Below are positions 21,721 through 35,813 of a stretch of DNA of 35,835 bases, piece after piece. This DNA is from a virus. The first letter of the stretch is position 1. Each line of letters begins with the position of its first letter. Made by a program: the position numbers and the translations under genes. The stretch spans positions 1-35,835 of IMG/VR virus record IMGVR_UViG_3300050821_005791. One strand, written 5' to 3'. A model generated the notes under the pieces. The model was given only the letters and a program-made list of their open reading frames with translations, did no database searches and was not told where the DNA came from.

Positions 21721-22479
21721 TCACACTGTCTTTAGCGGCTGCCAAACGGATTCACCAATTCCTTCGTCTTGTCTATCTTCTTTATCCCCGTAAATCTCAT
21801 CTTCTTCAATCGGATCTAATCTACCGACCTCTGGTCGGGACGAGCTTCGCTCGTTAGAACCTTCGGAAGCTGCTATGGCACCTCTACGGCAACATCTTAT
21901 CCAAGCAGTTCTTTCATTTTCAGTCATCCCTCCAATATCGGGGAAGTCTTCTTCCTCTGCCGTGAGGATATCGAATGTCTCAAAATCTCTCTCAGGAACT
22001 AAGCTAGGCTCAGCTAAGCTGGGTTTGGTTTGGCTTGATGAGTTCTCTGAAGAGTTCAAATGATGAGTTCTATGATGAGTTCCGTGTAGCTCTGAGCTAC
22101 TGGTGCGAACGCTCTCAGCTACTGGTACTGGTAGCTCTGAGCTACTGGTGGTAACCTCTGAGCTACTGGTAGCTGAGCGGTACTGGTAGCTCTCTGAACC
22201 CAGTTCAGTCAACCGCTGGTATGAAATCTGGTAAATGTTTGTATCCCCGTTCTTACAGGGACGCTTTCCAATCACCTTTAGTATCCCGTTTTTGATAAGA
22301 CCTGGCAGAGTTCTATTGACTGTACTTCTGCTGAATCCGCAATCAGCCGATATGCAAGCGATTGAAGGCCAACACTGACCATTATTATCATTGGTTCTCC
22401 AAGCTAGTGCATAGAGAACAGCCTTTTCCATGCCCGGAAGATGAGCCTTGAAGACTGCATCTGTGTATTTGTTTGCCAT
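21721..22479 (-). CDS. Winged-helix replication initiator (lambda O-like organisation)
   Basis: The 252-residue protein has an N-terminal winged-helix domain (about 5-90): HLPGMEKAVLYALAWRTNDN, then CWPSIACISADCGFSRSTVN with the recognition helix, and LIKNGILKVIGKRPCKNGDT as the wing. This is typical of phage O-type initiators (HTH_36-like). Residues 90-150 are a Ser/Thr/His-rich linker encoded by a set of iterons, followed by an acidic C-terminus. In lambda-like phages O binds iterons inside its own gene and loads the helicase; the same layout is visible here. The start at 22479 follows the HTH gene stop by 2 bp. The last 60 residues are low in recognisable pattern and the in-frame sequence after the stop looks like another replication protein, so the 3' end may have been rearranged. 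Confidence 0.75.
   Translation of the reverse strand: MANKYTDAVFKAHLPGMEKAVLYALAWRTNDNNGQCWPSIACISADCGFSRSTVNRTLPGLIKNGILKVIGKRPCKNGDTNIYQISYQRLTELGSESYQYRSATSSSEVTTSSSELPVPVAESVRTSSSELHGTHHRTHHLNSSENSSSQTKPSLAEPSLVPERDFETFDILTAEEEDFPDIGGMTENERTAWIRCCRRGAIAASEGSNERSSSRPEVGRLDPIEEDEIYGDKEDRQDEGIGESVWQPLKTV
21824..21854. repeat. Two adjacent perfect hairpins inside the replication gene
   Basis: CCGACC-TCT-GGTCGG (21824-21838) and ACGAGC-TTC-GCTCGT (21840-21854) are perfect 6-bp stems with 3-nt loops, one base apart. Side-by-side tight hairpins in a coding region near iterons could be part of an origin or a recombination scar. No more can be said from sequence. Confidence 0.6.
22036..22187. repeat. 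Iteron array, candidate prophage replication origin
   Basis: A 17-bp element AGCTCTGAGCTACTGGT occurs exactly at 22088-22104 and 22133-22149, with one or two changes at 22110-22126 and 22154-22170, and a degenerate copy at 22171-22187. Start-to-start distances are 22, 23, 21 and 17 bp, close to two helical turns. Each unit contains the dyad AGCTC-T-GAGCT. Next to them TGATGAGTTC is repeated at 22036, 22061 and 22073. The array encodes the flexible linker of the initiator, exactly the place of the lambda origin within gene O. Confidence 0.75.
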
Positions 22480-23509: not shown

Positions 23510-23998
23510 TTTTCTATGCCGGAGCCGAGACACAGTAATGTTCTCGCGGGGGCAGCCACCTCCGACTTCCTCCGGCACCAAAGTTTCGTCTGTGAGTCTC
23601 TGCTAACCGCGAGGCGCACTGGGTGTTAGGGATAGCACCTTCTCCAACTCACGAACGGATGATTTTTGCGGCGGGATAGAGCGACGGAATCGTCGTTGAA
23701 GCCGAAAGCCATAACTCCCGTCCGGTGGCTCGCTCTCAAGAACCGGGTTCCGCAATAAGCTCTCGTATCCTATCTTCTCAGATGCTCACGAGAGCAAAAA
23801 GAAATCGGTCTGACGACCTAAGACATGGGTGAGCCCTCAAGCAACTCCTTCCTAAAACCGTCAGACCGATTTTCCTTTTAAGCTGAAATTAAGAAAACGG
23901 GAGCCTGACCCGCCAACAGGCCCTAACTCTTTAGAAACCTTCCCGTAATATAGCTATTTTGATACCCCCATTCCCGCGCTATTCTAAAAAAATTCGAC
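23510..23998 (+). ncRNA. Highly structured non-coding stretch, candidate RNA gene(s)
   Basis: No ORF fits 490 bp, but perfect stems are dense. TGCCGGAG (23517-23524) pairs with CTCCGGCA (23570-23577), enclosing CGAGA/TCTCG (23526-23530, 23542-23546) and CGGGGG/CCTCCG (23547-23552, 23559-23564, one G-T), a tidy three-way junction. CGACG-GAAT-CGTCG lies at 23682-23695. TGCTC-ACGA-GAGCA (23783-23796) follows, and then a perfect 14-bp pair, AAATCGGTCTGACG (23802-23815) with CGTCAGACCGATTT (23859-23872), followed by TTCCTTTTA. This suggests one or more regulatory RNAs ending near 23880. No known RNA family is recognised, and the strand is a guess from the T-rich end. Confidence 0.4.
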
Positions 23999-24073
23999 GG
24001 GGGTGTAGCGAAACAGTATCGCGGCCCACTCCTAATGGGACGACTGCGGGTGCGAATCCCGTTACCTCCACCA
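23999..24073 (+). tRNA. tRNA-Arg(CCT)-like gene with encoded CCA
   Basis: A full cloverleaf can be drawn. Acceptor GGGGGTG pairs with TACCTCC (two G-T). D-stem is GCGA/TCGC with a 7-nt loop. Anticodon stem GCCCA/TGGGA (outer pair G-A mismatched) closes the loop CTCCTAA, with T33, anticodon CCT at 24031-24033 and A37. Variable loop is 5 nt. T-stem GCGGG/CCCGT surrounds TGCGAAT. Discriminator A and CCA are encoded. Odd points: the D-loop lacks the GG pair and the T-loop has G in place of T55, so tertiary contacts are unusual. It may be a divergent phage tRNA reading AGG, or a decaying one. Confidence 0.6.
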
Positions 24074-24074
24074 C

Positions 24075-24102
24075 GGGACGGCTTGGGTAACCAGGTCGTC
24101 CC
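24075..24102 (+). promoter_or_regulatory. 12-bp hairpin with GNRA loop before the dioxygenase gene
   Basis: GGGACGGCTTGG (24075-24086) pairs along its whole length with CCAGGTCGTCCC (24091-24102), two pairs being G-T, around the stable tetraloop GTAA. It starts 1 nt after the tRNA CCA and ends 10 nt before the dioxygenase ATG, whose leader has no Shine-Dalgarno. It may stabilise or process the message 5' end. Confidence 0.65.
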
Positions 24103-24112
24103 CTAAAAACCT

Positions 24113-25507
24113 ATGGATAGAGCATTAGTAGCCCTCAGAGAAGAACGCGATGTCGTTAAGAAGCAACTTTTCGCTGTGGAAGCTGCTATAGCTGCGCTTT
24201 CGGGCGAGCCTACTAAGAAGAAAAAGTTCGGTCGTAATAAGCGGGTGTCCTCATTGCTGAGGAAGAAGCTATATAAGGCGGCTCAAGAATACCAGGCAGC
24301 AAAGGTTAAAGAGCCGCTCGCGGGAGCCGCCTTTAAGATGACAACGAACAGCTATGACGCGCTCTATAGCCTGTCAACGCCGGGATTTAAGGCTCTAGGG
24401 CACGCGAGAGATATGTTGAAGGACAAACGATTAAAGCCTCTTATCCTGCGCAGCAAAAATAAAATTCTAGACCTTACCGATCCCACGGTAAAAAAGCAAT
24501 ACAAATACACAGACAAGGAGGAGGGCGAAGTTCATCGTTATTACGACGAGGATATTCCTGGAGCGCCACTGAAAGAGAACACCATCTTTTTGTATGAGCC
24601 TGGACGCCACCAACCACCAGGCAGTCTTAAGATGGGAGTAGCTGGCATCTACCTCAAGAACGTGATTCACGAGGATATTTGGCGCACGGCGCTGGGTGAT
24701 CCGGCCAAAGGTCTACCCGGCTTTCGCGCCATGAGTTGGGAACCACCAACGAGGTCTGAGACGAGGCCCGCCAAGGAAAGGCAGCGAGGACAGAAAGTAG
24801 AAGCGGCGGAATTGCAATTTGGGCACACGACGCGAGGTAAGATAAACAAGCATGGTGCGCACAAGGTAGATGAGCACAACCACGCGGCGCTAGGGCCGTT
24901 ATACAAGTTTATGGACCTGATCTTCCTCATCGTATTACCTGGATATTGGCTGCACCAGAGTGTGCCTAAGACCCTTGCCGAGAGGAAACGTATCCGGGCT
25001 TCCCTCAAATCCCCGAAGGATTATGGCGGCGCACTCAGCCGCTGGAAACTATTTGGCACCTCCTTTTCAAGCGGCGCATTATTGCGCAGTTGTCCAGCCG
25101 CCATCCATCAAGACGCCAATGCTGGAAAAGAAATTAGTAACTTCACTTGTCTTACCAGTTGCGGCGAGGACGTTAAGGGCGGGACGTTTTGTCTCATCGA
25201 GTATGGAATCAAGATAGCGGTTCAGCCAGGAGACCTCTTAATTTGTCAGACATCCCGTGAGTGGCACTGTAACCTCGGACCAGTCACAGGCAAGGAAAAG
25301 TATAGCATTGTTGCTTACTATCAACCGGAACTAGGTAATGAAGAGCATTCCATAAATACGGGCGTAGCAGCAGAGACGTGGGAAGACCGCTTAGACGATT
25401 GGCTCTTCACAGCCGAAGAGGGCGAATTCTTTGCGCTAGGTTCGGGCAAGACTGTAGTGCCCTGGGAAGAGGATGAGTTAGTGAAAGATGAAGACGAAGA
25501 TTCGTGA
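24113..25507 (+). CDS. Tet/JBP-type 2-oxoglutarate/Fe(II) dioxygenase with basic coiled-coil N-terminus
   Basis: The 464-residue protein has a C-terminal double-stranded beta-helix. IHQDANAG gives the iron pair His332 and Asp334, GGTFCLIEYGIKIAVQPGDL the central strands, and SREWHCNLGPVTG the distal His385. In KEKYSIVAYY, Lys396 stands where most relatives have the 2-oxoglutarate-binding Arg. The order HxD, N, GG.FC.., PGD, H, G.xYS matches the Tet/JBP thymine or methylcytosine oxygenases and their fungal and phage relatives. Residues 1-64 are a charged helix pair (REERDVVKKQLFAVEAAIAA, then a Lys-rich part) like those of neighbouring small proteins, suited to DNA or protein binding. The middle (75-320) is poorly recognised. 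The likely reaction is oxidation of a modified or normal base in DNA, possibly free in the cell. Substrate is unknown; the fold call is good, the DNA substrate is inference. Confidence 0.75.
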   Translation: MDRALVALREERDVVKKQLFAVEAAIAALSGEPTKKKKFGRNKRVSSLLRKKLYKAAQEYQAAKVKEPLAGAAFKMTTNSYDALYSLSTPGFKALGHARDMLKDKRLKPLILRSKNKILDLTDPTVKKQYKYTDKEEGEVHRYYDEDIPGAPLKENTIFLYEPGRHQPPGSLKMGVAGIYLKNVIHEDIWRTALGDPAKGLPGFRAMSWEPPTRSETRPAKERQRGQKVEAAELQFGHTTRGKINKHGAHKVDEHNHAALGPLYKFMDLIFLIVLPGYWLHQSVPKTLAERKRIRASLKSPKDYGGALSRWKLFGTSFSSGALLRSCPAAIHQDANAGKEISNFTCLTSCGEDVKGGTFCLIEYGIKIAVQPGDLLICQTSREWHCNLGPVTGKEKYSIVAYYQPELGNEEHSINTGVAAETWEDRLDDWLFTAEEGEFFALGSGKTVVPWEEDELVKDEDEDS

Positions 25508-25531: not shown

Positions 25532-25747
25532 ATGGCCGACGTGTTGAATGTGCTGAAAGAAGAGCGCGATACTCTAAAGAAGCGGCTCACAGCGTTGGAA
25601 AAGGCGATAGTCGCCTTGGCGGGAGATGTCAAGAAATCTGTTAAGCGCGTAAAGAAAACCATGAGCGCGTCTGCCAGGAAGAAGATTGCGAGAGCACAAC
25701 GGAAACGGTGGGCGATAATCAAGAAGGCTAAAGAAGTCAAAGGCTGA
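25532..25747 (+). CDS. Small basic coiled-coil protein, paralogue of the dioxygenase N-terminus
   Basis: The 71-residue protein begins MADVLNVLKEERDTLKKRLT and continues with ALEKAIVALAG; residues 6-31 align with residues 6-30 of the dioxygenase (LREERDVVKKQLFAVEAAIA). The C-terminus MSASARKKIARAQRKRWAII is the Lys/Arg/Ala-rich tail I know from many Acidobacteriota proteins. GGAGG lies 6 nt before the ATG. Twenty-five bases separate it from the dioxygenase, so they are probably one operon. It may bind DNA in an H-NS-like way; that is inference. Confidence 0.75.
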   Translation: MADVLNVLKEERDTLKKRLTALEKAIVALAGDVKKSVKRVKKTMSASARKKIARAQRKRWAIIKKAKEVKG

Positions 25748-25755
25748 AGCCTGTT

Positions 25756-26094
25756 ATGCTCTGGTTTAGAATTCGTAAGGCAAAGATTTCGCCAAAGGAC
25801 CGCGAGGAGTTTGAACAGTTTGGCGTGGCAACTATCCAGTTTATGTTGGCGAGTGGAAACTTAGATGAACTAAACGGCGGTCCAATGCTTTGGGGAGGGA
25901 CCAAGACGGGCAAGTCTGCCTTAGATCCAATCCAGATGGATTTGTTATTCCACAAAAGACCTGCGGCCTTGAAGTGGTTGGTCGAACAGTACGACCGACA
26001 AGAGCGGAAAGAAACCTGGTCAATTACAATGGAAGCGTCTATTACGGTGTTTGTTCTCGCCGAATTGGTCCTAGCATTGGTATACCGTAAATAA
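25756..26094 (+). CDS. Tail-anchored membrane protein of unknown function
   Basis: The 112-residue protein (MLWFRIRKAKISPKDREEFE start) has a soluble N-terminal part and one C-terminal hydrophobic segment (SITVFVLAELVLALVY, about 94-109) followed by RK. Eight bases separate it from the previous gene, so it likely belongs to the dioxygenase operon. GGTKTGKS (47-54) resembles a P-loop only superficially, with no partner motif. Function unknown. Confidence 0.65.
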   Translation: MLWFRIRKAKISPKDREEFEQFGVATIQFMLASGNLDELNGGPMLWGGTKTGKSALDPIQMDLLFHKRPAALKWLVEQYDRQERKETWSITMEASITVFVLAELVLALVYRK

Positions 26095-26121
26095 AAAGGC
26101 CGAGTGATTTCTCACCCGGCC
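26093..26121 (-). terminator. Terminator of the leftward secreted-protein gene
   Basis: GGCCGAGTGA (26098-26107) pairs with TCACCCGGCC (26112-26121), 9 of 10 positions, and is followed on the minus strand by TTTTTATTT. It is 18 bp beyond the stop at 26139. Confidence 0.85.
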
Positions 26122-26138
26122 CCTAATTGCCACGATGG

Positions 26139-26759
26139 TTACTTACAGTACTTCGCCTTAGCTTCTTCGGATAGTTTGTCCGAAGCGCACATCGCGGAAA
26201 TATTGTTATCGGCGGCTGGCTTACTCTCTACTTTAAGAGGTTTCGGCAATTTTATAGGGTTGTATGACCCCTCTTTCTTAGCGTCCGCCGGGTCGGGAAT
26301 CATTATGTAGGTTACTCCCATGTGATGCTCGATGCGATACAAGATTTTGCTCGTGGCTTCAAGACCCTTGGCACTATCATGATGTCCCCATGTGTGGTCA
26401 AGAAATACAGGGGTACCATCTTCCTCGGTGAGCATGAGGACATAGGGTTGGTCACATGGGAGTATGACAGCGGCTAAACCTCCTCCGCCTGTGCATGTCT
26501 TGATGGTCAACTCGGTACCGTCGGGCATATCGGCGACCAGCCACCCGCTGTAATCGTCTACAATTCCGCCCGTGCAATGCACTCCCAGCAAGCCCTCGTT
26601 GCAGGTCGTGGTGTCGGTGAATCCTGTTGTCACTTTGCCGCCGACGTGCAGCGGCACCTTTTCGAGTTTGCCCATCTTGTAGTCCCCGCTGTGATCCTTC
26701 GCGGAAGCCATCGTGCTGAGCGCCAGTATTAGGATGATTGCCGCCAATAGTGTCTTCAT
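26139..26759 (-). CDS. Secreted protein, function unknown
   Basis: The start at 26759 (MKTLLAAIILILALSTMASA) has GGAG 9 nt upstream and opens a classical signal peptide cut after ASA; longer in-frame openings upstream overlap a terminator. The mature part (about 186 residues) has Cys pairs (TTTCNEGLLGVHC, KTCTGGGG...LPC, and a C-terminal MCAS...KYC) suggesting disulfides and an exported location, with beta-rich sequence (DGTELTIKTC, VTYIMIPDPADA). The gene is a single transcription unit with its own terminator. Its style fits an Acidobacteriota secreted hypothetical protein, perhaps a lysogenic conversion gene. Family not recognised. Confidence 0.75.
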   Translation of the reverse strand: MKTLLAAIILILALSTMASAKDHSGDYKMGKLEKVPLHVGGKVTTGFTDTTTCNEGLLGVHCTGGIVDDYSGWLVADMPDGTELTIKTCTGGGGLAAVILPCDQPYVLMLTEEDGTPVFLDHTWGHHDSAKGLEATSKILYRIEHHMGVTYIMIPDPADAKKEGSYNPIKLPKPLKVESKPAADNNISAMCASDKLSEEAKAKYCK

Positions 26760-26831
26760 TTCAGTTAACTCCACGCTCAGGATAGCGCGGGGCAGGGTTG
26801 TGGCAGTGTTATCGCTTTTGTTACAGGTGTC

Positions 26832-26870
26832 TAAAAGCAAATGGGCCGAGTAGGTTTCCCCACCCGGCCC
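26832..26870 (-). terminator. Terminator of the small membrane coiled-coil gene
   Basis: GGGCCGAGTAGG (26843-26854) and CCCACCCGGCCC (26859-26870) pair at 10 of 12 positions with a TTTC loop, followed on the minus strand by ATTTGCTTTTAG. It is 23 bp after the stop at 26894 and closely resembles the stem at 26098-26121. Confidence 0.8.
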
Positions 26871-26893
26871 CATGCGGACTTGCGAGGTAGAGA

Positions 26894-27211
26894 CTAGGGG
26901 ACAGCCGGAGTAGGGCAGCTCTTCGACGCTGGTATCTCGAATGATTGACCATCAATCGTCCAGCAAGTTTGTTTCTCCTTCCCGGTCCATTGTGTTCGGT
27001 GTTCCAGACGATGAATCTTGTCGTCAAGTTTCAGGTTGTCGAGTTCCATTTGCGCGGATTGGTCACGTAGTTTGATTTTGAGGTTCAACTCCTCTCGATC
27101 CATCCTCCGCTTCTCGGCGGCTTGTTCGTCCGGTAGGATTTGCGTGACGTAGACTCCGCCAAGAATCAAGAGCAGTATGCCGATTAAGACCAGTTTCGTT
27201 TTCACTTTCAT
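26894..27211 (-). CDS. Single-pass membrane protein with periplasmic coiled coil (possible spanin-like form)
   Basis: From the ATG at 27211 (MKVKTKLVLIGILLLILGGV) the product has 105 residues: a membrane anchor at about 5-24, then a charged coiled coil (EKRRMDREELNLKIKLRDQS and ELDNLKLDDKIHRLEHR), then a C-terminal part with two Cys (KQTCWTIDGQ...SKSCPTP). An ATG three codons earlier is possible; GGAGG is 2 nt before the chosen one. N-terminal anchor plus coiled coil is the outline of an inner-membrane spanin, but no outer partner or endolysin is near, so I only note the resemblance. Confidence 0.6.
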   Translation of the reverse strand: MKVKTKLVLIGILLLILGGVYVTQILPDEQAAEKRRMDREELNLKIKLRDQSAQMELDNLKLDDKIHRLEHRTQWTGKEKQTCWTIDGQSFEIPASKSCPTPAVP

Positions 27212-27281
27212 ATCCTCCATTAGAGTTTCTACTGTGCGATTCTCCGAACGGCTACTAACACTTGTCCAAGGGAAAACGGAA

Positions 27282-27449
27282 TCATTCGCGGTCCTCCAGT
27301 AGTTCCTCAGAGCCGCTAGCGATAAGGGCATCCGCCATTTGCTGAGCCTCAGGATTGAGAATGACGCGCCGTTCCGCTCGTAATAGGGCGCATTCGACAT
27401 CATGTATAAAACGATTCGTCCCCGGCCAGAATTTGTGTTCGTTGTTCAC
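27282..27449 (-). CDS. Small soluble protein with GTG start
   Basis: A 55-residue protein starting at GTG 27449 (first residues MNNEHKFWPGTNRFIHDVEC), chosen because AAAGGAG lies 7 nt upstream. A central helix (ALLRAERRVILNPEAQQMAD) and an acidic end (SEELLEDRE) are visible. It precedes the membrane coiled-coil gene in the same direction. Family not recognised. Confidence 0.55.
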   Translation of the reverse strand: MNNEHKFWPGTNRFIHDVECALLRAERRVILNPEAQQMADALIASGSEELLEDRE

Positions 27450-27516
27450 TGCCCTTCTCCTTTGAGTAAGTCCGCTCAAACCCCCGACCAGATCGGAGGC
27501 TTGGACTGACTCGCCC

Positions 27517-27903
27517 TTAGACGCCAGTGGTTTTCGAGGATTTGGTAGCCGGGGTGGGAGTCCGCTTTTTCCCTGGTGCGGTTACACTAGGGATAGCGGG
27601 AGAAGCCGTCTGAGGCGCTCCTGACGCTGCGGAGGCGGCTTCCTTCCGCTTTGCGTGATAGTTTGCCAGCCCAGCCTTGATCGCGAGTTTCCCTGCCTCT
27701 GACATCGGGCGTGTCGCGCGACCGGGATTCTCAAGATTCTTTATGGTCCTGTCGAGAGTGACGAGTTCAGACTTGAGCGCAGATCCAGACAGGACAGCAA
27801 TTTCCGCCCGGAGTGCCGTGATTCGGGCATTATCCGGTTTGAAATCGGTGAGAGCGGCGGCTAATTTGGTGCGTTCGGCCTTCAAGGTTTCGATGAGTGA
27901 CAT
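27517..27903 (-). CDS. Basic coiled-coil protein with Ala/Lys/Pro-rich tail
   Basis: The 128-residue protein has an N-terminal coiled coil (LKAERTKLAAALTDFK, RITALRAEIAVLSG, then a long helix to residue 60), a GRATRPMSEAGKLAIKAGLA segment related to the Acidobacteriota Ser/Ala/Lys tail, and a low-complexity C-terminus rich in Ala, Pro, Thr and Lys. It resembles the N-terminus of the dioxygenase and the 71-residue protein in layout. Probably binds DNA as a small histone-like protein; that is inference. Confidence 0.65.
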   Translation of the reverse strand: MSLIETLKAERTKLAAALTDFKPDNARITALRAEIAVLSGSALKSELVTLDRTIKNLENPGRATRPMSEAGKLAIKAGLANYHAKRKEAASAASGAPQTASPAIPSVTAPGKKRTPTPATKSSKTTGV

Positions 27904-28064
27904 TTTCTTTGTATCCTCTCTATTTGATTCGGTCTATATGTTGACCGTAGAGTAAACATACGCTTGTTATCTAAGAAGTAAAGGACAAAAAGGCAGGTCA
28001 ACAAACTTTTACACATCTATTGGTCTTAGGAAATTGGGGTCAGCGTTTGGTATTTCTGGCGATG

Positions 28065-28709
28065 TTAATTACGTGCACTCTCTACATCTAGTTCCATCTC
28101 AATTTTTGCGGCGAGGAATATTTCTGCTGCGTTATTTATCCGCGTCTTCAAAATTTCATACGCCACTGAATTCCCAACTTTGCCATACATCTGTTCAAGT
28201 TCTTGTTCGTATGTTGTGCAGGAATGCCTTAGATAATTTTTAATCCATCTCTGACAATAATCTTGTTTCCAATCTCCATTCGCGTATATCGCGTGAGAAA
28301 ATCCTCTGCGTCGATCTCCGGAAGGATAAAATTCAGAAGATTGGTTGCGATTACGAGTTGCTGCGTCTCCTAATTGGTCGAGGCTGATGTCTGCTGGAAC
28401 ATTGAAGACGATGTCGATTGAATTTACATAATCTATGATTTCTTGTAACTTTTTCTCTGCTGCGGCCTTACCAGCTTGACATCGCTTCGGGGATTTTTTG
28501 AGCTTGTCGCCATGGAGCTGTTCAGCAGCTAGCACACGTGCCATAGCATAGAGGCTGCCGATGCCATACGCATATGTACGCGACCCCCGAATCGCAAATG
28601 TCTTATCCGGTTCGCCGAGGATCTCCTTCACTTTTGCTGGTTTCCAGCCCCGATCCTGTGATAGTGCTGTTGGTGTTATGTACTCCTGGTTGTCCGTATG
28701 GGTCCCCAT
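28065..28709 (-). CDS. Hypothetical protein with helix-turn-helix-like N-terminus
   Basis: The 214-residue protein starts MGTHTDNQEYITPTALSQDR. Residues 12-62 (TALSQDRGWKPAKVKEILGE, then KTFAIRGSRTYAYGIGSLYA) look like a MerR/excisionase-type winged helix: a recognition helix then a hairpin and tyrosine-rich end. The rest is helical with a charged middle and no known motif. It starts an isolated leftward unit in the moron region. DNA binding is possible; function not known. Confidence 0.65.
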   Translation of the reverse strand: MGTHTDNQEYITPTALSQDRGWKPAKVKEILGEPDKTFAIRGSRTYAYGIGSLYAMARVLAAEQLHGDKLKKSPKRCQAGKAAAEKKLQEIIDYVNSIDIVFNVPADISLDQLGDAATRNRNQSSEFYPSGDRRRGFSHAIYANGDWKQDYCQRWIKNYLRHSCTTYEQELEQMYGKVGNSVAYEILKTRINNAAEIFLAAKIEMELDVESARN

Positions 28710-28831
28710 TGACTAGCCTCCACCCATATCCTACTGACATCCCCAGTGAAGGGCTATCGAGTCTCAACATATTTTTGCTCCAAGTCAAAATAGTTCCCCC
28801 ATCCTCGGGAGACACGGACTTAGCTCAATGG

Positions 28832-28837
28832 TAGAAT
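28832..28837 (+). promoter_or_regulatory. -10-like TAGAAT box just before a moron gene
   Basis: TAGAATCGG begins at 28832, 12 nt before the ATG at 28844, so a transcript from it would be leaderless or nearly so. The same TAGAATC box precedes the genes at 29691 and 31189. The left flank resembles a tRNA D-arm, which I reject elsewhere. Confidence 0.4.
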
Positions 28838-28843
28838 CGGCGA

Positions 28844-29035
28844 ATGAAGAATGCGAAGCTAACTGTTGCCCAAACCTGTATGACCGCCAATTTCTATGAA
28901 GAGTCGATTGACCACCCCAAAGAGACTTTTGAACAGATCACTCGGCGATGTCTAGGCGCTAAGGGCTTCCGCAAGGGTGCGACTGAATACAAGAAGGAAT
29001 GCCGCAAGGCGTTTGACCTGGGGCGGAAGAAATGA
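28844..29035 (+). CDS. Small basic protein of unknown function
   Basis: A 63-residue protein (MKNAKLTVAQTCMTANFYEE start), ending in a basic region (KGFRKGATEYKKECRKAFDL and GRKK). No Shine-Dalgarno precedes the ATG, and a TAGAAT box lies 12 nt before it, so a leaderless message is possible. Family not recognised. Confidence 0.55.
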   Translation: MKNAKLTVAQTCMTANFYEESIDHPKETFEQITRRCLGAKGFRKGATEYKKECRKAFDLGRKK

Positions 29036-29082
29036 AGTGGAAGGTTGTGGAGAAATTCTTATTGGACTTAGCAGGTAGCTAA

Positions 29083-29598
29083 TTATTTCTTCTCAATCAC
29101 CTGACGAGCTTCTTCTTTCAATTCTTTGAGCTGCTTTCTTGAAAGTGCCCACTCTTTGCCTCCCGCAGCCCACACATATATTTTCTTGGTATTTTCAAGG
29201 TCACTTGCGCGCTTGGCTGAAAATGGTCCCCATTCGGCGTGCGATTCCCCTTCCTGCAACATCTTTGGAAGGTTTCTGCCGAAAACAAAAAATGCATTGC
29301 TATCTTCTTGAGGTTTGTAATACTTGCCGCCCCAACCCTGCCAGACAACGGGCCGCCTTCCGATATTAACCACGCTCATAACCAAATAGAGTTCCTCGGA
29401 TGCTTGCACTTTCATGTCAGGCGCTACAAAGAAGGACTGCCCGGTCGTGGAATATCCCATCCTCCGAATACGTGCTGAGAGTTGCAACTTTGCGCGGTCT
29501 ACAGCGTCTCTGTAAATATTCCAGCCCAAACCGACCGAAGCTACTATCGCGCCCCAAGTCGCCAGGAACCTCGTTAGACCATCAGATGATGTCTGCAT
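29083..29598 (-). CDS. Membrane-anchored protein of unknown function
   Basis: The 171-residue protein has one N-terminal membrane segment (LATWGAIVASVGLGWNIY, about 12-29) and an outside-facing beta-type domain (SEELYLVMSVVNIGRRPVVW, KKIYVWAAGGKEWAL) ending in a helical Lys/Glu tail. This membrane-stub plus small beta domain is common in hypothetical proteins. It reads left against its neighbours, a further isolated moron unit. Confidence 0.65.
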   Translation of the reverse strand: MQTSSDGLTRFLATWGAIVASVGLGWNIYRDAVDRAKLQLSARIRRMGYSTTGQSFFVAPDMKVQASEELYLVMSVVNIGRRPVVWQGWGGKYYKPQEDSNAFFVFGRNLPKMLQEGESHAEWGPFSAKRASDLENTKKIYVWAAGGKEWALSRKQLKELKEEARQVIEKK

Positions 29599-32547: not shown

Positions 32548-32976
32548 ATGGCTGACTTGAAGGTGGTTTGGAACTGGTCATTTCTGGGCTACGAAGCCCC
32601 TAGTGGGAATCGCCCTGTTCAAGAGTGGTTTGATGGGCTTGCAGATGAGGTTAAGGACGAAGCGAGAGACGCAATTGGATACCTGCAACATTCTTCCATC
32701 CAACAGTGGAGTCGTCCGCACTTTGAGAAGTTAGAGGACGGAATATCTGAGGTCAGGTTCCGGGTGAGCAATGTACGATACCGCATATATGGGTATTTTG
32801 CGACCGAAGTTCGGCAGTCCTACACGTTCTTACACGGAACACACAAGAAGGTGAGCAATGATAGAAAAGGCAAAAAGACTGCTAAGGACCGGATGGGGGA
32901 AATTGGGCGAAAAGAAGCCCGCACCCATAAATTTGAATTCGAAAATGGGCCTGATTCGGCGTCTGCGAAGAAGTAG
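32548..32976 (+). CDS. HigB/RelE-family toxin (Gp49-like)
   Basis: The 142-residue protein matches Gp49/HigB toxins: PVQEWFDGLADEVKDEARDA, LEDGISEVRFRVSNVRYRIY and SYTFLHGTHKKVSNDRKGKK followed by TAKDRMGE. The usual action is ribosome-dependent mRNA cleavage; the Arg/Lys-rich catalytic-face residues in RFRVSNVRYRIY and the HGTHKK segment are present. A C-terminal extension of about 25 residues exceeds the usual ~115. It precedes the antitoxin, the HigBA order, and overlaps it by 119 bp. Confidence 0.88.
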   Translation: MADLKVVWNWSFLGYEAPSGNRPVQEWFDGLADEVKDEARDAIGYLQHSSIQQWSRPHFEKLEDGISEVRFRVSNVRYRIYGYFATEVRQSYTFLHGTHKKVSNDRKGKKTAKDRMGEIGRKEARTHKFEFENGPDSASAKK

Positions 32977-33640
32977 AGATGCGCGTGCCCAGTTTGTTTC
33001 TTCTCACGTGGACAAGACGATAGCGTTTCAGCTTCGCGCTATTCGCGACCAACAGAACTTGAGTCAAGAGAAGTTAGCAGACCTGGTGGGCATGAATCAA
33101 AATGCCATTTCTCGCCTTGAATCGGAATGGTATGGGAAACCCACAATTCGAACGCTCAAGAGACTCGCGTCGGCTCTGGATGTAGCCCTGGTGGTTAGAT
33201 TTGTCCCTTTCAGCCAATTGGTTAATTGGGTGAGTGGAACACCGTTTGTTGAGGCTGGGCTTTCAACCGAATCTCTCGCTGTTCCGAGTTTCGACTCCGA
33301 AGTGACCGAAGGAAATTTTGAAGAAGTCACAGTGGCCTACAACCAGATTGTTGGCTCTGCATTTCATGGGATAACTCCAGGAACCTACATGAGAGTAGCA
33401 CCAGTGGAGAACGTGCTCACTTTGTACGGATACGGAGCACCCGCTGAGACTAGACGCAATGAGCCTGAAACGGCTTTGGAGTTTATTTTTCCACCGAGTA
33501 GAACCCTTTATGTGCAACAAACAAGTAGCCCCGTTGACCCAGTTAATAGATTAATTGAAGGTCGTAGTAGATACACAATACCAATTGCTGGCCCTGCGGC
33601 GTCAGCTACCGCAGCTAATGCGGTTTTAGCTAACCCTTGA
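32858..33640 (+). CDS. XRE-family antitoxin with long C-terminal extension
   Basis: The 260-residue frame from the ATG at 32858 has AAGGTG 4 nt upstream. A later ATG (32945, residue 30) is the alternative start, from which the known antitoxin family pattern begins (RSRDARAQFVSSHVDKTIAF). The helix-turn-helix is at about 66-90 (LSQEKLADLVGMNQNAISRL) and ends with LKRLASALDVALVVRFVPF. About 140 residues follow that are unlike standard antitoxins and show mixed strands and Pro. It should neutralise the toxin and repress the operon at the upstream dyad. The long 5' overlap with the toxin is unusual. Confidence 0.85.
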   Translation: MIEKAKRLLRTGWGKLGEKKPAPINLNSKMGLIRRLRRSRDARAQFVSSHVDKTIAFQLRAIRDQQNLSQEKLADLVGMNQNAISRLESEWYGKPTIRTLKRLASALDVALVVRFVPFSQLVNWVSGTPFVEAGLSTESLAVPSFDSEVTEGNFEEVTVAYNQIVGSAFHGITPGTYMRVAPVENVLTLYGYGAPAETRRNEPETALEFIFPPSRTLYVQQTSSPVDPVNRLIEGRSRYTIPIAGPAASATAANAVLANP

Positions 33641-34421: not shown

Positions 34422-35633
34422 TTACACTTTCACTGCCTGAGCTACCTGATTCGCGTAGTTCCTGTATTTCGGCTGCTTCATCTTGATTTTCGCCGCGTAC
34501 CGCTTCAACTCCGTAAGGTCGTAATGGCCCATCCATTCTTGAACCACATGAATAGGTACTCCGTGTTCCAGGGCGTTGGTTGCGAATGTTCTGCGGAATT
34601 TATGAAGAGACCATTTACCCGGTAGGCCCGCGTCCTTGACGATGTCTTTCAGCTTCCCCAAGAAATGGCCCTCCGGCTTGGCGTCGCGGTTCACGAATAT
34701 TGTCTTCCGACTCGGGTACAACGCCTTATACATTTTCAAAGCTTCCACTAAATCGTCCGAGAGAGGAATATCCCGCGACTTGTGATTTTTAATCGTGAAG
34801 CCCATTTCCGGTTTTTCGGTCACCCGGTAGATTGAAGCGGGCTGTTCCTCGGGGGATTTGTCCGGGTCCGGCTCCGCGAAGTGAATATCCGCCCAAGTCG
34901 CATACATGACTTCCCTCTCGCGACACCCACTGCGCAAGAAGAACTGATACCGGATGCGCTCCTCGTCGTCGCAAGCCGCGAAGAACTTGTCCAATTCATC
35001 TTGGCTGTAGAAATCAACTTCTGGATCTGTGTAGCGCGGAATGTCGCCGCCCTTCCGGTGCCCCACGATCCGGAATTTGAAATCCACAGAATATCCACAA
35101 TTGTTAAAAAACGTACCGAGGGCCTGAAGGCGATTGAACACGGTCCGGGGCTTGGATTTCAGCTTCTTCTGGTAGTGGGTGATGAGCTTGAAGACGTCGG
35201 CCCGGTTCACGTCGGCCAGATACCTCTTCCCACAGACCTCGGCGAATAGCTCCAATTCCCACCGCCACCGCTTTAGGCCCCTGGCATCGGTTTGGGTAGA
35301 ACGCTCTAGAAGGAACGATTCAATGGCTTCGGTAAGGGTGGGCCTATCTCCAAGCGATCGTTCCGCAGAAGGGACGCTCTCTCCCGCGAGGACACGTTCT
35401 TGGCGGGTCTGAGCCAGAAGAGCCTCAGTCGGGTCGGAACCCACAGCCTTCCAGTGCTGTTTCCGGCCCGCGTACCATCGAATGGCATACGGCCCTTTAC
35501 AGCGAACCTCACGGTTCTTGTATTTCCCGACCATAGGATTGAGGCGGGCGTTCCCCGAATAGACGGCAGGAATCATGCGCCGCCTACTATTTTCGTGATA
35601 CGTGATGAAGATACTGACGGTGGTATTCGCCAT
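34422..35633 (-). CDS. int: Tyrosine integrase of the prophage
   Basis: The 403-residue protein has an N-terminal arm-binding/SAM-like part (about 35-170, AIRWYAGRKQHWKAVGSD; LTEAIESFLLERS) and a C-terminal catalytic domain with Arg238 in SGCRERE, Lys285 in KNHKSRDIPL, His344 and Arg347 in LHKFRRTFAT, His370 in WMGHYDL and the nucleophile Tyr379 in LKRYAA. All expected catalytic residues are present, so the enzyme looks functional. It reads away from the tRNA-Gln gene, 105 bp off, the standard arrangement at a tRNA attachment site, and ends at a strong terminator. The N-terminal 34 residues (SIFITYHENSRRRMIPAVYS) are basic and may bind arm sites. Confidence 0.95.
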   Translation of the reverse strand: MANTTVSIFITYHENSRRRMIPAVYSGNARLNPMVGKYKNREVRCKGPYAIRWYAGRKQHWKAVGSDPTEALLAQTRQERVLAGESVPSAERSLGDRPTLTEAIESFLLERSTQTDARGLKRWRWELELFAEVCGKRYLADVNRADVFKLITHYQKKLKSKPRTVFNRLQALGTFFNNCGYSVDFKFRIVGHRKGGDIPRYTDPEVDFYSQDELDKFFAACDDEERIRYQFFLRSGCREREVMYATWADIHFAEPDPDKSPEEQPASIYRVTEKPEMGFTIKNHKSRDIPLSDDLVEALKMYKALYPSRKTIFVNRDAKPEGHFLGKLKDIVKDAGLPGKWSLHKFRRTFATNALEHGVPIHVVQEWMGHYDLTELKRYAAKIKMKQPKYRNYANQVAQAVKV

Positions 35634-35738: not shown

Positions 35739-35813
35739 TGGCTGGGAGGCCTGGACTCGAACCAGGATAGTCAGCTCCAGAGGCTGATGTACTACCGATT
35801 GTACGACCTCCCA
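35739..35813 (-). tRNA. tRNA-Gln(CTG), prophage attachment target
   Basis: On the minus strand: acceptor TGGGAGG/CCTCCCA, the U1-A72 end typical of tRNA-Gln. The anticodon stem TCAGC/GCTGA closes the loop CTCTGGA, with T33 and anticodon CTG. The T-arm is CCTGG-TTCGAGT-CCAGG, the discriminator G, and CCA is encoded. The cloverleaf is complete and the 3' end points towards the integrase, so the attachment core is probably in the T-arm/3' half. The tRNA is intact, as expected when the prophage carries the missing 3' part. Confidence 0.95.

Follow-up and report, generated by a model that had tools for sequence, protein, structure and literature searches.

A highly divergent TET/JBP-type dioxygenase, with lysine at the predicted 2-oxoglutarate site, in an integrase-carrying siphophage

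Phage-encoded Fe(II)/2-oxoglutarate (2OG) dioxygenases of the TET/JBP branch are regarded as the origin of the eukaryotic TETs, and base-resolution sequencing makes use of them as reagents. Those described by Burke et al. 2021 are considered here through the accounts given in two papers that cite that work (PMC12730594, PMC11404850): they are phage-encoded members of the same enzyme superfamily as the protein analysed below and, by these accounts, are 5-methylcytosine (5mC) hydroxylases that lie in cassettes with methyl- and glycosyltransferase genes and that have been tied to cytosine hypermodification. Other phage TET-like genes have been tied to thymine hypermodification: in thymidine hypermodification cassettes, such as that of Rhodococcus phage Tonitrus, a tet-like JBP gene occurs together with ParB-like, aGPT-Pplase2 and 5hmU kinase genes (PMC11955845), the TET-like enzyme taking the first step. 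A further type is represented by the TET/JBP proteins of Caulobacter phage Cr30 and Stenotrophomonas phage DLP6 (PHROG_24024), and relatives of the Cr30 type occur in Stenotrophomonas, cyanobacterial, Pelagibacter, Nonlabens, Methylophilales and Arthrobacter phages. The DNA of DLP6 has been reported to be restriction resistant (PMC8228603); DLP6 carries a relative of the gene described here and lacks a C5-methyltransferase (PF00145), a tie to restriction resistance that is a correlation only. In both DLP6 and Cr30 the TET/JBP protein is annotated as 'SNF2 DNA repair protein', which is apparently a mistaken label carried over between annotations.

The window analysed here, that is, an entire IMG/VR virus contig of 35,835 bases, carries at 24113-25507 (plus strand) an open reading frame of 464 aa that begins with ATG and has a coding signal in its own frame only, normal over all segments. 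The original prediction was that this frame encodes a TET/JBP-like dioxygenase with iron ligands His332, Asp334 and His385; frame and ligands are confirmed, and the iron triad is invariant in 42 aligned proteins. The protein consists of a basic two-helix coiled coil (aa 1-75, 24113-24337), a linker with no detected relatives and low model confidence (aa 76-149, 24338-24559; pLDDT <50), a catalytic domain predicted to combine a double-stranded beta-helix (DSBH) with TET-type preceding helices (aa 150-419, 24560-25369), and an acidic, disordered C-terminal tail (aa 420-464, 25370-25504; pLDDT <50). Within the catalytic domain lie a TET-type LPxxxxxQ helix motif (P276..Q282, 24938-24958), followed, at the residue positions originally given, by H332-Q-D334 (iron ligands 1 and 2, 25106-25114), H385 (ligand 3, 25265-25267) and K396 (25298-25300).

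The direct match to the Pfam family Tet_JBP (PF12851) is weak (aa 310-403, E=7.4e-4, 19.2 bits, below the curated gathering cut-off of 34.9), and additional support for the assignment was therefore sought. PHROG_24024 matches aa 310-407 with E=3.5e-11; a profile of 41 phage relatives, built without the window sequence, scores the protein at 52.4 bits, whereas the highest-scoring of 200 shuffles reaches 3.8; and hhalign aligns the phage-relative profile to aa 260-405 with a probability of 98.4. Moreover, a phage-family profile (38 rows, of which the window protein is one) finds human TET2 in the PDB (E=2e-7) through a match that spans the HxD, LPxxxxxQ and R/K-x-S-x-V-x-Y (2OG Arg strand) segments, and in which P276..Q282 aligns with LAPDAYNNQ of TET2. 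P276 and Q282 are invariant in the 42 aligned sequences, as are four further positions that the window protein retains: G356, N387, S398 and Y402. Among phages, tblastn returned a single match, the protein of Cr30 (31% over 94 aa), which is itself an unambiguous Tet_JBP member (PF12851, E=8e-21), and a Pfam scan gave no match of the AlkB family profile to the window protein. The best identity is 29%, and the protein lies on by far the longest branch of a tree whose placement of it is uninformative beyond that fact. Together with the modelled fold described next, these comparisons support, by sequence and by model, the view that the gene encodes a real, intact and highly divergent Fe(II)/2OG dioxygenase of the TET/JBP branch.

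In a full-length AF2 model only a core (aa 250-410) is confidently predicted, with the DSBH strands at aa 320-403; folded alone, aa 150-419 reach moderate confidence (mean pLDDT 67.8, pTM 0.70), from an input alignment that consists of TET-like rows and that pulls the model towards a TET fold. When this core model was searched against the PDB with Foldseek, the top 21 rows were all of the TET family (CcTet, NgTET1, CMD1, TET2), headed by CcTet (E=1.4e-9). The solved eukaryotic TETs NgTET1, TET2 and CcTet resemble the predicted fold over 205-234 residues (VIA-align: NgTET1, Z 15.9, rmsd 3.6, 208 residues; TET2, Z 15.3, 234 residues; CcTet, Z 14.9), whereas they share only 9-16% identity with the window protein, differ from it in the flanking regions and have Arg where it has Lys.

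A highly improbable alternative is that the protein is a protein hydroxylase of the prolyl-4-hydroxylase (P4H) type (2OG-FeII_Oxy_3) and not a nucleic-acid oxygenase. P4H enzymes have a Lys at the 2OG site, one of them, from P. putida, is among the Foldseek matches, and the core slice alone matches PF13640 weakly (E=0.019); yet on that same slice Tet_JBP does better (E=0.0036), the P4H matches extend over about 130 columns with a TM-score of about 0.26 of the query as against 0.5 for TETs, and the helix block upstream of the strands, with P276..Q282, is common to TET2 and the phage TETs.

Apart from the TETs themselves, the closest solved folds belong to nucleic-acid oxygenases as well (ALKBH3, AlkB). 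Because the input alignment was TET-like and because ALKBH3 (Z 15.1) comes within one Z unit of NgTET1, assignment to the class of nucleic-acid 2OG oxygenases of the TET/AlkB kind is firmer, as far as the model goes, than a choice of TET over AlkB by fold alone; for that choice it is sequence that decides. The closeness of ALKBH3/AlkB to the TETs (Z 15.1 versus 15.9) also bears on a second alternative, namely that the fold is of TET type but that the substrate is something other than a DNA pyrimidine--RNA (e.g., tRNA), N6-methyladenine (6mA) or another nucleic acid--with a regulatory or counter-defence role. Such a substrate would fit with the crystals of CcTet, the top Foldseek match, that have been obtained with 6mA DNA in addition to 5mC DNA, with an N-terminal half that is unlike that of every relative, and with a tRNA-Arg (CCT) gene directly upstream (23999-24073, plus strand); against this, the tRNA adjacency is a matter of position only, and the family profile groups the protein with TET/JBP. 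We regard this alternative as unlikely, though less so than the others considered here.

The basic residue that follows the distal His is, at the aligned position, K396 in the window protein; it is Arg in all 155 readable relatives, and in TET2 as well, so that the Lys, which the original prediction had picked out as replacing the usual 2OG-binding Arg, is unique in the sample. When other Lys-type variants were sought by means of a WHCN...K motif, none was found: the four matches obtained were judged to be due to chance. This singular Lys, together with the longest branch in the tree, might indicate a decaying or catalytically dead homologue, or a domain retained as a binding module. Three considerations make that quite improbable: the iron triad and P276, Q282, G356, N387, S398 and Y402 are intact; the frame is open, with a normal coding signal in all segments; and Lys serves the same purpose elsewhere. 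In collagen prolyl 4-hydroxylase, for instance, a Lys occupies the 2OG site. In JMJD7, Lys190 binds the 2OG 5-carboxylate, though from a different strand (PMC9001643). Since other 2OG oxygenases thus use Lys at this site, loss of activity does not follow from the replacement, and by this analogy it is plausible that the Lys-type enzyme is active.

The N-terminal half sets the protein apart further. Residues 1-75 are basic (19 K/R versus 8 D/E) and are modelled as two helices (2-30 and 43-66), in agreement with the basic coiled coil that had been proposed. This region is duplicated: it aligns with 25544-25714 of the next gene at 44% identity over 58 aa (E=1.1e-6). That gene (25532-25747, plus strand), which has an upstream GGAGG, encodes a 71-aa basic coiled-coil protein, that is, a paralogue of the enzyme's N-terminus and possibly its partner subunit. 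No match to aa 1-305 occurs in any relative's locus that was fetched, and scans with the coiled coil alone, whether from the N-terminus or from the 71-aa paralogue, found no relatives; by sequence comparison the N-terminal region is a new module. Likeness to the Cr30/DLP6-type proteins is accordingly confined to the core (approximately aa 260-412), where the iron triad and LPxxxxxQ are shared at about 30% identity, whereas the N-terminal 250 residues are unrelated; the Cr30/DLP6 type, moreover, keeps Arg at the position of K396.

Relatives of the core are numerous, in contrast to the expectation that few phages would carry such enzymes: two single-motif scans of IMG/VR yielded 221 and 258 of them, isolate phages have them too, and phage TETs are described in the literature. 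Phage TET/JBP genes are thus common, and less rare than was initially believed. What is unusual here is the long-branch divergence, the Lys-type 2OG site, the N-terminal module and the setting in an integrase-bearing siphophage. Scans of viral contigs and of genome contigs with the single sequence turned up no close relatives; nor was this kind of TET found by a core-alignment scan, using a narrow pattern, of 85,000 prokaryote genomes, nor any relative by a scan of plasmids, nor a TET gene in terminase-related viral contigs (L004-L009).

As to partner genes, the absence of a methyl- or glycosyltransferase from the window had been pointed out, and none was seen: PF00145 is absent from the record (a fragment, so that the phage may still encode one beyond it), and neither transferase occurs among the approximately 30 window ORFs scanned with Pfam. 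The absence of a C5-methyltransferase is, however, the rule and not the peculiarity that it was first taken to be. In a sample that was picked by similarity to the window core and that is biased to large lytic phages, PF00145 occurs in only one of 51 other TET-carrying records, that of Melnitz-3, where an HhaI-like methylase gene is found a short way upstream of TET; records of the Cr30/DLP6 type likewise usually have no C5-methyltransferase. In the same sample, a ParB-like gene occurs along with the TET gene in 4 of the 26 other records tested, the two being directly adjacent in HTVC112P and Ottawa, and an integrase match occurs in just two of 52 records, the window and Cr30, so that records of the Cr30/DLP6 type, Cr30 excepted, lack the integrase that the window has. 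Some relatives, then, resemble the Tonitrus-type cassettes in adjoining ParB-like genes, whereas the window record has no ParB-like (PF02195) match and its scanned ORFs no kinase family match. With respect to the enzymes of Burke et al. 2021, as the citing papers describe them, the window differs in having no transferase in the record.

From the homology, catalytic residues and predicted fold we infer an activity, a base specificity, a partner and a biological role. The enzyme would probably oxidise the 5-methyl group of a pyrimidine in DNA, its likeliest use being anti-restriction--a role preferred because the phage TETs so far described serve base modification (PMC12730594, PMC11404850). Counted against this reading are the Pfam score below cut-off, the moderate confidence of a model drawn towards the TET fold by its input, the unique Lys, the very long branch, and the lack in the record of a transferase, kinase or ParB-like gene for later steps. 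Mechanistically, H332, D334 and H385 would hold the iron, K396 would replace Arg in holding the 2OG 5-carboxylate, and the enzyme would act on a base flipped out of the DNA, hydroxylating its 5-methyl group. Candidate reactions are thymine to 5-hydroxymethyluracil, for which no methyltransferase would be needed, and host-made 5mC to 5-hydroxymethylcytosine. The coiled-coil N-terminus, probably with its small downstream paralogue, would serve oligomerisation and DNA binding. With no gene for such later steps seen in the record, any hypermodification pathway would stop at the hydroxylated base, which by itself can alter restriction; phage DNA may thereby become less recognisable to the host's restriction systems.

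That the enzyme works during lysogeny, on the DNA of the host or of the prophage, is speculation. The most developed form of this idea, which we consider improbable, would make the protein a free-standing TET lineage of the Lys type, belonging to temperate phages and needing no phage partners. Its own coiled coil, binding DNA, and the small partner that arose by duplication would direct it to 5mC or 6mA placed by the host, and it would erase or convert these marks, in host or prophage DNA, in the lysogen or early in infection; it would be an epigenetic eraser and not part of a hypermodification pathway. A divergent lineage of the Lys type that has a new N-terminal module and lacks modifying partners would widen the family's range of sequence and architecture, and the enzyme could reveal what a phage TET does alone.

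The contig itself derives from an HK97-type siphophage, whose minus strand carries the genes for terminase, portal, protease, capsid and tail. It also has an O-like replication initiator, a tyrosine integrase (34422-35633) and an XRE regulator; it is a fragment, cut at its left end within the tail region and without end repeats. The integrase and regulator bear out the temperate context that had been proposed, as does a tRNA-Gln (CTG) gene at 35739-35813, which adjoins the integrase at the right contig end and is probably the attachment site. Among the minus-strand genes, the TET gene, the coiled-coil gene and a gene for a 112-aa protein (25756-26094; coding signal, no family or relatives) form a plus-strand block that is preceded by the tRNA-Arg and a strong hairpin, and that looks like a moron-type insertion. 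The hairpin (24075-24102, plus strand), a 12-bp perfect stem with a GUAA loop (-23.7 kcal/mol, z -5.7), lies after the tRNA and ahead of the start codon of the TET gene, for which no Shine-Dalgarno sequence is visible. No PADLOC defence family was matched in this cassette.

Several further features of the neighbourhood were observed. In phage C48C1 (L011:2185-3859) the TET gene likewise lies directly downstream of tRNA genes. An intergenic stem at 23797-23879 (z -5.1, -28.3 kcal/mol), which is followed by a T-rich stretch and has no Rfam match, is possibly a small RNA or a terminator. On the other side of the cassette, five minus-strand genes without a Pfam, PHROG or PADLOC match (26139-29598) end at a clear terminator hairpin (26095-26124). 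At 32548-33640 a gene for a Gp49/HigB-like protein is overlapped by an XRE regulator gene, probably forming a toxin-antitoxin pair. Lastly, the O-like initiator gene (21721-22479) contains four iteron-like 25-nt repeats (22086-22176) at a spacing of 21-23 nt, two of them near-identical with the core GTAGCTCTGAGCTAC, as in lambda-type origins.
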